A model generated the notes under the pieces. That model searched no databases and was not told the origin of the DNA. It saw nothing but the letters and a program-made list of their open reading frames with translations. A stretch of 64,000 nt of DNA from positions 2,232,001 through 2,296,000 of the forward strand of contig NZ_CP017075.1 of assembly GCF_001742225.1 (NCBI RefSeq), written 5' to 3'. Numbering within the stretch: position 1 is the first letter of the stretch; every line of letters starts with the position of its first letter. Source of the stretch: Novosphingobium resinovorum. GTDB taxonomy: Bacteria; Pseudomonadota; Alphaproteobacteria; Sphingomonadales; Sphingomonadaceae. Below, in pieces: positions 27,652-40,423 of the stretch. The translations under genes were made by a program, and so were the position numbers.

Positions 27652-28779
27652 TCACGCGATCACCAGAACCGAACGATGGATGAACCGCACGAGGTCCGCC
27701 TGCCCCCGCGCGCCGGTCTTGGCGTAGATCCGCTTGGAATAGGTGCGCGCCGATTCCACCGTCAGCCCCAGCTCCGGCGCGGCCTCGCTGATCGACATGC
27801 CTCGGCTCAAGGCCAGCGCCAGCCGCGCCTCGCTGGGCGCAAGATCGAAAAGCTGGGCTAGCTGCTCGCAGCGATCGGCGGACGACCAGTTGTCGGCATG
27901 CAGGTAGCACACGATCGCCGGCGCAGCTTGTGTCGTCCCCATCCGCTGGCCCGAAGGCACCAGCAGCAGGTCGAGCCACGGCTCACGCGACAGCACGATC
28001 GCACGCGGCCGCGCCTGTGGATCGATCGCCAGTTCTCGCACCGCAGCAAGCAGTTGGCGGCGCAGCGCCGTGTCGCGGGCGGTTAGCCTGCCGTCCTTCG
28101 CCCGCGCGATGCGATCGCCCGCCTGCAACATGCGGGAACCCTGCGCATCTGCGTCGAGTACGCGCCCTTCGCCGTCGAGCGTGAGCCAGCCGAAGTTCAG
28201 ACGCCGCACGGCCTCGCGCGCGACGGCAGCGGTCATACGCTCCCGCTCCAGCGCCACGAAACTGCCTAACGCTACGCGCATGTATGGCACCAGCGCTTCG
28301 AGCAGGCCGTCGACTTGCCGGCCGAAATCGCCCTCGCGCCGGGTGACGGTGATCCAGCCGCTCGTGCCCGACTTCTCGGCAAAGCGGATCATCCGCATAT
28401 GGTTCATGCCCGATGGCACCAGCAATTGCGTCAGATAGGCGTCGTGGGCGGGCTCGCCGAAATGCAGCAGCTGGTCTAGCCGATACGTGCGCCCTTCCGT
28501 CATCTCATGATAGGGCATCGGATCGCGCAAGTAGAGGTTCTCGCGATAGTGCCGCGACACCCGCGGCGGCGACGGCGCCCCCGAATAGAGGTGGATCACG
28601 CGGGCCTCGGGCGTACCAAGCGGCAGCGGGCGGAACACCAGGCTGGCGTAGTCACCCGCAACCGCAGCGCGCAAAGCGTCGAGGAAACCGCGCCATGGCG
28701 GATCTTCGACCAGACCCTCGATCAGGGGGGCGATCAACGGGACGATCAGACTTTCGACAGACACGCTCTCACAGGACAT
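27652..28779 (-). CDS. LuxR-type transcriptional regulator
   Basis: A 375-residue regulator. The first 200 residues resemble a GAF/autoinducer-binding-like sensor (RENLYLRDPMPYHEMTEGRT), followed by a short PAS-like segment (NFGWLTLDGEGRVLDADAQG) and a C-terminal LuxR helix-turn-helix (FDLAPSEARLALALSRGMSI, LGLTVESARTYSKRIYAKTG). The ATG at 28779 is preceded by GATGAGG. It is divergent from the LLM-sulfotransferase operon with a 128-bp gap and lies beside the SDR genes, so it is the natural candidate regulator of this region. The ligand is unknown. Confidence 0.85.
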   Translation of the reverse strand: MSCESVSVESLIVPLIAPLIEGLVEDPPWRGFLDALRAAVAGDYASLVFRPLPLGTPEARVIHLYSGAPSPPRVSRHYRENLYLRDPMPYHEMTEGRTYRLDQLLHFGEPAHDAYLTQLLVPSGMNHMRMIRFAEKSGTSGWITVTRREGDFGRQVDGLLEALVPYMRVALGSFVALERERMTAAVAREAVRRLNFGWLTLDGEGRVLDADAQGSRMLQAGDRIARAKDGRLTARDTALRRQLLAAVRELAIDPQARPRAIVLSREPWLDLLLVPSGQRMGTTQAAPAIVCYLHADNWSSADRCEQLAQLFDLAPSEARLALALSRGMSISEAAPELGLTVESARTYSKRIYAKTGARGQADLVRFIHRSVLVIA

Positions 28780-36341: not shown

Positions 36342-37328
36342 TCAGGCCGCCTTCGCGCGCGCCAGCCGGCGCCGTCCGACGATCGCTGCCGCTGCGGCGC
36401 CGAACAGGATCAGCATCGGCGGAGCGGGTACGTCGGTGCCGCCCGACGTGCTCGTGGTCGAACCACCCGAGGACGAGCTGGACGACGAAGAGGAAGACGA
36501 ACTTGAGCTGCTGGACGAAGTCGAGCCGGTCGAACCGCCCGAAGTCGAGGAAGACCCCGACGACGAAGACGAGCTGGACGATGAACCGCTGGACGATCCC
36601 GTGGAGGTCGCGCCGCCGGAAGAATGATCGTCACCGCCGCTTGAGGAACTGGAGGACGAACTGGAGCTGGAGCTGGAAGACGACGAGGACGAGGACGAGC
36701 TGGAACTGCTGGTGCTGGTCACGTTGCCCGAGCTGGTCGACGTGGTCGAGGTGATCCCGCCCGTGGTCGTCGTGGAGGTCAGGCCACCGGTGCTCGAACT
36801 GGAGGTCGAGGTCACGCCGCCGCTGGTCGAGGTCACACCGCCCGTGGTGGACGTGACGCCGCCGGTCGTGGAAGTCACGCCGCCGCTGCTGGTCGAGGTG
36901 ATCACGACGTTGCCGCCGCCACCACCGCCGCTGCCTCCGAAGAAGCCGCCGAAGAACCCGCCGCCAAAGCCGCCGAAGCCGCCACCGCCGCCGCCGATCA
37001 CTACCGGCGCGCCGCCGCTGCCGCCCGAGTAGGACGGCCCCGGCGCGGGCGGCATGTACGGCGCGGGCATCGGCACCATCGCCATCTGCGGCTGGTCGCA
37101 GCAGGTCCGCTTGATGATCTTGCGCACGCGCTTGGTGGTGCGGGGCTGGTCCTTGCGGACGAGGCGCTGGGCCGGGCGCTTCTTTACCGGAGCGGCCTTG
37201 GCCATCTTCACCTTGCGGTACTCGGTCTTCGCCGACTGCGTCTCGGCGACGTGAACGGCACCGCCGCCGATCACGGCACAGCCCGCCGCACAGGCAGACA
37301 GTTTAGCAAGGGCCATCCGAACCGACAT
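36342..37328 (-). CDS. Ser/Gly-rich low-complexity exported protein with VPAP-type C-terminal sorting tail
   Basis: A 328-residue protein. N-terminus: signal-like hydrophobic stretch (LSACAAGCAVIGGGAV), then a Lys/Arg-rich segment with a Cys pair (IKRTCCDQ). The middle is low complexity: a Gly/Phe run (GGFGGFGGGFFGGFFGG), repeated GGVTSTT/GGVTSTS units, then more than 100 residues dominated by Ser. The C-terminus (VPAPPMLILFGAAAAAIVG then RRRLARAKAA) has the tripartite plan of PEP-CTERM tails: motif, membrane helix, basic end. An exosortase/rhombosortase-type substrate at the cell surface is inferred. The strongly repetitive codons also leave long open frames on the other strand. Confidence 0.75.
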   Translation of the reverse strand: MSVRMALAKLSACAAGCAVIGGGAVHVAETQSAKTEYRKVKMAKAAPVKKRPAQRLVRKDQPRTTKRVRKIIKRTCCDQPQMAMVPMPAPYMPPAPGPSYSGGSGGAPVVIGGGGGGFGGFGGGFFGGFFGGSGGGGGGNVVITSTSSGGVTSTTGGVTSTTGGVTSTSGGVTSTSSSSTGGLTSTTTTGGITSTTSTSSGNVTSTSSSSSSSSSSSSSSSSSSSSSSSSGGDDHSSGGATSTGSSSGSSSSSSSSSGSSSTSGGSTGSTSSSSSSSSSSSSSSSSSGGSTTSTSGGTDVPAPPMLILFGAAAAAIVGRRRLARAKAA

Positions 37329-37578
37329 AACGCGTTGCTCTCTTTGTTTCGCACCGGAGGCCCGAAGGCCCTTTCGGGCTACCGTGCATCCATCTGCCAG
37401 AAACAACGCAGAGACACGTTAATGCGGCAACGTCATTCACCCGCAATTCACCGTCCCGATGCGGGAAACTGGGTTAATTTATCATTCTAACTCAGAGGGT
37501 GTACCGAAACGGGACTGTTGGTTCGGTGGGTTGTAAAGCAGACCGACGCTTTTGCGGCGAATGTGCCGCCTGGCGCAC

Positions 37579-38607
37579 TTACCCTTCCGAATCGAACAAT
37601 CCGCCCTGCGGCCCCGCAGGAGGCGTCATGCCAAGGTGGCTCCAGCCCCGATCATTGAGGCAGCGCCCCCGTGCCGTGCGGGCGACGAGGCCCAACTGGA
37701 TGAGGTACGGCTCGATCACTTCCTCGATCGTGTCGCGTGGTTCGGACAGTCCCGCCGCCAGCGTCTCCACGCCCACCGGGCCGCCCTTGTAGATGTCCGC
37801 GATCATCCGCAGATACCGGCGATCCTGCGCATCAAGGCCAATGGCGTCCACTTCCAGCCGGGTGAGCGAATCGTCGGCGATCGCACGGGTAATGGTGTCC
37901 GATCCCGCCACATGCGCGAAATCGCGCACCCGCCGCATAAGGCGCCCCGCGACACGCGGAGTACCGCGTGCGCGGCGGGCAATCTCGGTCGCTCCGCCCT
38001 TGTCGATGCCGATGCCGAGCAGGCCCGCGCCGCGGCTGACGACCTTCTCCAGTTCCTCGACGGTGTAGAACTGCAGGCGCACCGGGATGCCGAAACGGTC
38101 CCGCAGCGGCGTCTGCAGCAGGCCCTGCCGGGTCGTCGCGCCGATCAGCGTGAAAGGCGGCAGGTCGATCCGCACCGAGCGCGCCGACGGACCTTCGCCG
38201 ATGATGAGGTCCAGCGCGCGGTCCTCCATCGCCGGATAGAGTACTTCCTCGACCACGGGATTGAGACGGTGGATCTCGTCGATGAACAGGACATCGCCCT
38301 GCTCCAGATTGGTCAGCAGCGCGGCGAGGTCGCCCGCCTTGGCGATGATCGGACCGGAAGTAGCTCGGAAACCCACGCCCAGTTCACGCGCAACGATCTG
38401 CGCCAGCGTCGTCTTGCCAAGGCCCGGAGGCCCGAAGAACAGCACATGGTCCATCGCCTCGCGCCGCGACTTGGCGCTTTCGATGAAGACGTGGAGGTTG
38501 TCCTTGGCAGCCGCCTGCCCGACGAACTCGGCGAGCGTCTTGGGCCGAAGCGCGGCATCGGCGTCCTCGACCTGGCGATTGGGGGAAAGAATGGGGTTGT
38601 CGGTCAT
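37579..38607 (-). CDS. ruvB: Holliday junction branch migration ATPase RuvB
   Basis: AAA+ motor that drives branch migration of Holliday junctions with RuvA. The 342-residue protein has Walker A GPPGLGKT (59-66), Walker [11 protein letters not shown] (about 105-114), sensor 1 IGATTRQG, the arginine finger region PLRDRFG and the C-terminal winged helix ([20 protein letters not shown]). Its ATG overlaps the stop of an unrelated gene (38604-39113) that separates it from ruvA, whereas ruvA and ruvB are normally adjacent. Confidence 0.97.
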
Positions 38608-39113
38608 TGTGCAAGCACTGGCAAACGGATTTTCGGAAATTGCACAATCTCATCGCCCAGCATTAGAATAGTTGTCAGTCCAGCCTCTACTCCAATGACA
38701 TGCTGCGCCTTTTCATCACGATCTTCTGTATTTGCTCCTGGGCCATCAGGCCTAGTGCTATCGATTAGCGACTGACAGAAAGTATAGAAACTTACAATTT
38801 TCGACACATGAGCAGGCCGCAAGTCACTAAGGTGAGTTGCATTTGACGAAAAAACTTTCGAATACTCCCCTCTTATGTCAATCACATAGCTCATACCATC
38901 CCAGTGACCTGCACGTATTGCATTCGCTTGAGCATGAAATGCTTCGAGATATCCCTGCTTTCGGATCAGAAAACAGATTGCTTGTACTTCTGATGCCACA
39001 GCAACGAGAGTGGATTGCCTTCGCCGCCCACGATCACGGAGTTTATCAAACAGTTGGAATATCCAAACGAGCAAAGCACCAATAGCTGCAGCAACGATCT
39101 CAGGGCTAATCAT
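38604..39113 (-). CDS. Unknown membrane-anchored protein inserted between ruvA and ruvB
   Basis: A 169-residue protein with one N-terminal membrane segment (about residues 4-22, [16 protein letters not shown]). A basic stretch ([12 protein letters not shown]) and a helical soluble part of about 130 residues follow ([52 protein letters not shown]). I do not recognise the family. Its DNA is visibly richer in A and T than its neighbours. Its ATG overlaps the ruvA stop and its TGA overlaps the ruvB start, both as ATGA, so it is co-translated with the resolvasome genes. This looks like an acquired gene fitted precisely into the operon. Confidence 0.75.
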
Positions 39114-39715
39114 CCCGCTGCCCTCTTCAACGCCACCCGCATGAGATCACCCAACGGCGCATCGTCACCCAATTCCTCGACCGCCTTGCCAACCGCCGTC
39201 GCCGCCACCGCAGGCTTGAAACCGAGGTTCTGCAGGGCCGAGACCGCATCGGCGCTGGCCGAGCCCGCAGGCGCCACCGCCGCGATGCCGGACGCCCCCG
39301 GCGCGGTGGGCATGCCGCCGGCTTTGTCCTTGAGTTCGTTGACGATGCGGCTCGCCAGCTTCGGCCCGACGCCGTTCGCGCGCGCCACCATGGCGCTGTC
39401 GCCGCCCGCACAGGCGCGCTGGAGTTCCTCGGTCGTCAGAGCGGAGAGGATCGCCAGCGCTACCTTCGAGCCGACACCCTGCACCGCCGTCAGCAGGCGG
39501 AACCAGTTGCGCTCCGCCCCGGACGTGAAGCCGATCAGGCGCTGGTCGGTTTCCGAAACCTGCATCTCGGTATGGACGACGACGCGATCACCCCGGATAC
39601 CGAGATGGTCCAGCGTCCGCGCCGAACAATGGACGAGGTAGCCCACGCCGTTGACGTCGATGATGGCCCAGTCGGCGCCGGTGTCGTCGAGCAATCCTGT
39701 CAGCTTGGCGATCAT
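39110..39715 (-). CDS. ruvA: Holliday junction DNA helicase subunit RuvA
   Basis: Tetrameric protein that binds Holliday junctions and loads RuvB. The 201-residue product has the OB-fold start [20 protein letters not shown], the helix-hairpin-helix regions ([17 protein letters not shown] and [18 protein letters not shown]) and domain III ([17 protein letters not shown]), separated by an Ala/Pro-rich linker. The acidic pin region is present. The gene follows ruvC after a 231-bp gap containing a dispersed element and is coupled to an inserted gene at its 3' end. Confidence 0.96.
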
Positions 39716-39946: not shown

Positions 39947-40423
39947 TTACCTGTGACTGCCCAGCATATTCGCATGGGTAATCGCCACCGCCAGAGCATC
40001 GGCGGCATCTTCACCTGCCAGCTTCACGCCCGGCAGCAGCACCATCAGCATCGCCTGGATCTGCGCTTTCGCCGCTCCGCCGGTGCCGACGATCGCCTTC
40101 TTCACCAGCTTGGTCGAATATTCCGCCACCGGAATCCCGGCGCGCGCCACGGACAGCATCGCGACACCCCGCGCCTGCCCCAGCTTGAGCGTCGACTGCG
40201 GGTTCACGTTGACGAAGACTTCCTCCACCGCGCCGGTATCGGGCCGGTGCTGGAGGATCACATCGGTCAGCGCGGCGTCGAGTTCGACCAGCCGCTCGGC
40301 CATTCCGGCCTTGGCGTTGGTACGGATCTGGCCATTGGCGACGTGGCTGAGGCGGCTGCCGCTCTTGGCGACGACGCCCCAGCCCGTGCAGGTCAGGCCG
40401 GGGTCGATGCCGAGGATAATCAT
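39947..40423 (-). CDS. ruvC: Holliday junction resolvase RuvC
   Basis: Dimeric endonuclease that cuts Holliday junctions. The 158-residue protein has the four acidic catalytic residues of the RNase H-like fold: Asp7 in [15 protein letters not shown], Glu in [20 protein letters not shown] (about 68), and the Asp pair in [18 protein letters not shown] near the C-terminus. Length is normal. First ruv gene, downstream of yebC and a DUF3147 gene; a dispersed element separates it from ruvA. Confidence 0.96.

Follow-up and report, generated by a model that had tools for sequence, protein, structure and literature searches.

The window, a stretch of 64,000 nucleotides from Novosphingobium resinovorum, carries the genes ruvC, ruvA and ruvB in the same direction, with an additional gene (the accessory gene) between ruvA and ruvB. 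The features of this locus, in the order of transcription, are the following:

39947..40423, minus strand: ruvC, upstream of ruvA and in the same direction (Pfam and NCBIfam)
39110..39715, minus strand: ruvA (Pfam and NCBIfam)
39122..39127, minus strand: Shine-Dalgarno-like AAGAGG at the 3' end of ruvA (the 'port'), duplex energy -6.3, which supplies any ORF that begins at the ruvA stop
39110..39113, minus strand: ATGA overlap between the ruvA stop and the start of the accessory gene, read from the sequence
38604..39113, minus strand: accessory gene with an ATG start, coding for a 169-aa protein of an unnamed family of predicted membrane-anchored helical bundles
39048..39098, minus strand: predicted transmembrane stretch, residues ~6-22 (Kyte-Doolittle maximum of 2.43 for the 17 residues that begin with residue 6), inside model helix 4-53
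38604..38607, minus strand: ATGA overlap between the stop of the accessory gene and the ruvB start, with no Shine-Dalgarno (SD) sequence upstream (duplex energy +0.7)
37579..38607, minus strand: ruvB (Pfam and NCBIfam)

A single ORF occupies the whole 510-bp insert of the window. An earlier note on this DNA had pointed out the ATGA overlaps at both ends of the gene and its deviating base composition, and both hold: the accessory gene has 46% GC against 67-69% in its flanks (0.46 versus 0.686 in ruvA and 0.669 in ruvB; 0.662 in the window) and a GC3 of 0.367 against 0.851 in ruvA and 0.819 in ruvB. The gene is single-copy in its own genome, where the other listed match reaches only E 0.67. In a search of 5.8 billion proteins we found 22 entries, the window protein itself included, none of which is functionally named. 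The other 21 proteins align to it with 42-69% identity, hence the accessory gene is a real coding gene. Sixteen residues are invariant in the alignment of the 22 sequences, and a core common to the family persists down to ~20% identity. The note's view that the protein belongs to no recognisable family was borne out as well: neither Pfam nor NCBIfam gave a family at cut-off, and none was listed by PHROGs or by PADLOC, whose library is limited to described systems. The membrane anchor proposed for the 169 residues agrees with the predicted transmembrane stretch. In the structural model (mean pLDDT 86.5) a long helix of residues 4-53, the first part of which is transmembrane, is followed by a helical bundle. 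The basic stretch after the transmembrane stretch suggests that this C-terminal bundle is probably cytoplasmic. A similar order of helices is predicted, less confidently, for a Vibrio-side relative (pLDDT 76.7). The best viral structural match was an uncharacterised protein of mycobacteriophage Redi (G3M5C6; TM 0.49, E 0.025); at 10% identity this match is not significant, and helical bundles match easily. The ORF after ruvB in the window (36342-37406, minus strand) codes for a protein rich in Ser, Thr and Gly whose C-terminal tail resembles a sorting signal, and a long ORF after ruvB in locus L033 (8501-10336) has a similar start.

The gene had also been suspected of hiding in an operon under SOS-type control, for which a simple scan gave no support. 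We searched for GTTCN7GTTC, which we take to be the alphaproteobacterial LexA-like site. With one mismatch allowed, the window holds 40 such sites versus 42 expected; two one-mismatch sites, 39710 at the start of ruvA and 38068 within ruvB, are what chance would yield. The sole exact site in the window lies at 27671-27685 (minus strand).

In a first look at other genomes we searched 41, of which 38 had ruvA, and read 30 loci: 22 from the genus, the window's own included, and 8 from other families. Many different contents were found between ruvA and ruvB in these loci. The genus census was based on 102 junctions, including the 22 of the first look, from 185 ruvA-positive genomes; after dropping L024, L049, L110 and L116 before counting, 98 were parsed, the window's own among them. 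For the other genera of the family we collected 68 junctions from 117 genomes with a match and parsed 63 (L166, L186, L222, L224 and L227 were dropped before counting). In these samples, which came mostly from the top of lists ranked by RuvA match with some entries skipped, and so are non-random and lean to close RuvA relatives, inserts of >20 bp lie between ruvA and ruvB in 70/98 junctions of the genus and 53/63 of the other genera. Sorted by size, the genus junctions comprise 28 of <=20 bp, 14 of 20-140 bp and 56 of >=140 bp (family: 10, 5 and 48). Most inserts measure 0.04-1.4 kb, the largest parsed being 2.5 kb. An empty junction of the form AAGAGGGCGGCGGGATGACCGAC was seen in L011. In other families of the order the gap between ruvA and ruvB was -4 to 11 bp in all 8 loci read. 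Two control junctions in the same genus, murE-murF (0/29) and ftsI-murE (0/30), had no inserts. The site combines constant core flanks with several unrelated contents and empty sites, and it is filled far more often than comparable junctions, as measured against these two controls only. Comparison of the junction in relatives, which the earlier note had proposed, brought to light both empty sites and many other genes at the same spot; what the note had missed is the hotspot nature of the junction, with its many alternative occupants, and the absence of the family of the window's gene from all other places in the counted genomes. The spacer between ruvC and ruvA is variable too (33-752 bp in the 14 parsed of the 22 loci L003-L024), which is not the case for the overlapping controls. 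In genome G246 (C1:1028984-1029585) the RuvA match falls into two pieces (residues 1-137 and 136-201), possibly due to a frameshift or an assembly error.

What occupies the slot differs widely and includes small membrane proteins. Clustering by similarity of the 104 inserts of at least 140 bp gave DsrE-like proteins at 25 loci, followed by GIY-YIG, ParE-like and ParD-like proteins at 18 each. Smaller clusters were GFA (6), a 124-aa protein (6), a 161-aa protein (4) and the window's family (3); the rarest were HEPN (2) and AAA (2), along with many singletons. Pfam searches with representatives of the occupants supported ParE, DsrE, GIY-YIG, HEPN_RiboL-PSP, AAA_16, GFA and TonB_C; no Pfam family matched the ParD-like representative, and ParD and HicBA are names assigned by eye. 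The commonest occupants, DsrE-like and GIY-YIG, are not known defence genes, and PADLOC returned weak matches only, for one of ten slot occupants. All 18 slot copies of GIY-YIG (L005, L019, L022, L040, L080, L107, L112 and 11 family loci) are antisense to the ruv genes. GIY-YIG genes of one kind are present in 15/21 genus genomes searched (further loci: L270-L299), and the slot copies are flanked by palindromic repeats (of the TCATCCTGAACTTGTTTCAGGATC type, by eye) and resemble a mobile unit. The frame opposite to GIY-YIG is free of stops in 16/18 junction copies versus 9/28 elsewhere (p = 2e-4). We dropped this as a proof of coupling, since two of the three elsewhere copies with >60% identity are also open (L272, L273). 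An ORF of ~45-60 aa recurs in the inserts of L019, L038, L061, L090 and L114; it combines a hydrophobic stretch with a CLDxxGxWD-like motif and in four of these five lies directly before ruvB.

In the genus, filled and empty junctions differ in the SD sequence before ruvB. SD strength was taken as duplex energy with the 16S tail, with a cut-off of -4.5 or lower. At empty junctions the SD sequence for ruvB is supplied by the 3' end of ruvA, most often as AAGAGGGCGGCGGGGTGA, and at filled junctions this same sequence precedes the insert instead of ruvB. This cut-off is reached by the port in ruvA in 92% of 98 genus junctions versus 29% of 294 background 20-mers. Within the 20 nt before ruvB an SD sequence of this strength is present in 79% of 28 empty versus 29% of 56 filled genus junctions (Fisher p = 1.9e-5), the latter being the background level. 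In the family set alone the difference (60% of 10 empty versus ~31% of 48 filled) is not significant (p = 0.15).

The reading frame is maintained in the short inserts. All 14 genus inserts of 20-140 bp have a length of 1 mod 3, and in genus and family together 18 of 19 short inserts (exception L211) have this length and consist of one ORF that overlaps ruvA and ruvB by 4 bp each; counted by sequence cluster the ratio is 12/13 (p = 1.7e-5). By eye, around half of the short inserts bear a palindromic repeat of the form CCTGAACTYGTTTCAGG or a variant of it, so that even a seemingly non-coding repeat is kept in frame. Over all inserts of >20 bp a length of 1 mod 3 was found in 39/70 for the genus (p = 1.8e-4) and 24/53 for the family (p = 0.08, not significant), and between 140 and 400 bp the genus inserts are free of such a bias (3/12). 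A complete chain of -4/-1 overlaps from ruvA to ruvB is present in 41/70 genus inserts compared to 738/3500 rotated controls. In 80/104 inserts of at least 140 bp the last ORF has 40 codons or more and runs into the ruvB start, and 24/104 are without such an ORF. In the window the overlap is -4 at both joints of the accessory gene, which is the arrangement of a termination-reinitiation pair. It has to be considered that the ruvB start reads ATGA in 126/161 parsed junctions and that the last four bases of ruvA are GTGA or ATGA in 119/161. Any stop-free insert of 3n+1 length will therefore usually show both ATGA overlaps; the double overlap is almost built in at this junction, which limits its significance. 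According to PMC10666635, reporter work found that short overlaps are required for reinitiation and that ~20 nt nearly abolishes coupling. If so, a filled slot without an overlap chain should cost the cell RuvB.

We searched whole genomes in six frames for the window's gene family and found it in 6/397 family, 4/195 genus and 5/396 order genomes, with overlap between the sets. A separate collection gave four loci, those named being from Erythrobacter, Caenibius, Sphingorhabdus and an alphaproteobacterial MAG. With duplicates merged, the family lies between ruvA and ruvB in 13/13 counted genomes, in at least seven genera. Excluded from the 13 were two marginal partial matches (L230 and L231; E 1e-4), both among the five of the order set; their stretches contain neither ruvA nor ruvB, and if real they would, like the plasmid homologues described below, be exceptions to the strict co-location. 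In L118 and L125 a separate toxin-antitoxin-like pair (ParDE- or HicBA-like, by eye) precedes the gene in the slot. Across pairs of the 13 genomes the identity of the gene and that of RuvAB are uncorrelated (r = -0.19). The nearest copy among the 13 is that of Erythrobacter (L033), with 56% identity to the window gene (RuvAB 78%), while the three copies in the window's own genus have 22-27% identity to it despite RuvAB identities of 81-85%. In 11 of 12 hosts tested the gene is AT-richer than its surroundings, L119 with its near-normal composition being the exception. The suggestion that the gene was acquired is supported by all of this: empty sites in relatives, rarity in the genus, AT-richness and lack of correlation with RuvAB. 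As far as sequence comparison tells, the gene family is horizontally mobile across lineages, yet tied to one address in the counted genomes.

Outside the slot, a profile search picked up distant homologues, some on plasmids of Acinetobacter and Vibrio and some in further Vibrio records. Those on plasmids have no ruv genes next to them. BrnT/BrnA together with a restriction-modification set, a RelE/ParE-type pair, or DarT lie within a few kb of these plasmid and Vibrio relatives. On two Acinetobacter plasmids (L126, 3201-3877; L127, 6799-7480) the homologue follows a 63-aa ORF with 1 bp of overlap or gap, and the two perhaps form a two-gene unit. The phage and viral collections that we searched gave no confirmed relative of the gene family, and the defence searches for the family were negative or sub-threshold. 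Similarity to AbiTii (PF18864) was seen in 9 of the 22 members of the Vibrio-side alignment A3 (best E 0.009, related members counted); it is sub-threshold, the A3 member shown lies below the gathering score, and AbiTii was not listed for the window protein. A Cas8 model was matched by one of the 22 members of the A2 alignment (E 0.019). Type II toxin-antitoxin systems consist of two adjacent genes, whereas one ORF fills the insert of the window.

We think it likely that the ruvA-ruvB junction of this bacterial family is an operon-internal plug-in slot with translation-coupled, horizontally exchanged occupants, of which the window's gene is one. Most ruvA ends carry an SD-like sequence and then RTGA, and most ruvB genes open with ATGA; a stop-free insert of 3n+1 length thus becomes an ORF coupled at both ends. 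In the genus the occupant takes over the SD sequence of ruvB and leaves ruvB at background level. RuvB from a filled slot would then come mainly from ribosomes that finish the occupant and restart at the ATGA. Disruption of the occupant would lower RuvB, and its clean loss would need a precise excision. Exchange from strain to strain would make use of the conserved flanks, ruvA and ruvB, for homologous recombination. The earlier note had reasoned that RuvB synthesis should depend on translation of the accessory gene; the missing SD sequence before ruvB and the preserved frame give this in silico support, and RuvB in filled slots of the genus is probably dependent on reinitiation.

In the main rival explanation the protein is dedicated to RuvAB, as a membrane tether for the branch-migration complex or as its regulator or guard, and is retained solely where it is translated together with them. 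The best argument for this is the strict location in all counted genomes despite horizontal movement. DsrE-like occupants are less site-locked: they were at the junction in 15/27 strongly matching genomes and elsewhere in 12/27, or at the junction in 15/31 with weak matches (coordinates compared by eye; Fisher p = 0.0035 or 0.0013 against 13/13). Moreover, PMC10666635 describes short overlaps as more frequent for genes whose proteins are subunits of heteromeric complexes. However, the plasmid homologues are not near ruv genes, two marginal matches lie elsewhere, and the gene is missing from most relatives. The rare HEPN occupants look equally site-locked (at the slot in 2/2 strong matches, with one short weak match elsewhere), so the route of exchange may itself cause the locking. 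The 161-aa occupant had two matches at the slot versus three weaker ones (29-36% identity) away from it, G085 being without a ruvA position. On balance we regard a dedicated RuvAB partner as unlikely. A quite unlikely explanation is that the gene is a neutral passenger: the socket would tolerate stop-free inserts, and the gene would persist only due to the cost of precise removal. The palindromic repeats and GIY-YIG elements in the slot and the many unrelated occupants would fit with this, but the degree of conservation among the relatives, with its invariant residues and persistent core, argues for selection on the protein, and strict location would not be expected for random passengers. That the gene is an old, vertically inherited member of the operon is very improbable: it has the same place in several genera, and ancient subfamilies with differential loss may account for its divergence, but it is neither found in most relatives nor of normal composition, its identity does not follow that of RuvAB, and the closest gene is in a genome from another genus.

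A defence or addiction gene, as the earlier note had proposed, is suggested by the slot neighbours and the plasmid homologues; the searches for described defence systems gave sub-threshold matches or none. Based on composition, turnover, slot company and plasmid relatives we nevertheless rate this function as the likeliest, and tentatively suggest that the window protein might be a defence- or addiction-type effector at the inner membrane, membrane-acting or phage-excluding, like some other occupants. A longer shot is that in sphingomonad-type bacteria the junction serves as a dedicated, translation-monitored exchange port and that the membrane protein family guards RuvAB. If this were true, a guard co-translated with the branch-migration motor would sense interference of phages or plasmids with recombination and act at the inner membrane.

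We found no description of such a ruvA-ruvB slot in the titles and abstract openings of the open-licence literature, which is weak evidence of novelty. A slot within an overlapping core operon that favours inserts by frame and gives them a ready SD sequence would be a different route for foreign genes into core genomes, and it would make the translation of a repair motor hang on a replaceable passenger. It would also be a simple test bed for natural termination-reinitiation and, in a large bacterial family, a place to seek unnamed small genes of the defence type.

Chromosomal integration hotspots and defence islands hold variable contents between fixed core genes, and the usual places to look for hotspots are tRNA genes and the spaces between operons. 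The slot resembles them in its toxin-antitoxin and HEPN genes and in the empty sites of relatives. In contrast to them it lies inside a core operon whose genes overlap when it is empty, its inserts are mostly small, the insert of the window is without a recombinase, and short contents keep the chain of reading frames. Integron cassettes are single ORFs that are inserted at one address and exchanged; the slot likewise holds single ORFs at one exchangeable address, although the insert of the window has no integrase ORF. Translationally coupled pairs that work by termination-reinitiation have 4-bp ATGA overlaps and an SD sequence in the upstream gene, as described in PMC6728339 and PMC10666635. 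The slot shares both properties with them. Unlike the known coupled pairs, however, the ruvA-ruvB pair accommodates a replaceable third gene, which takes the original SD sequence for itself.
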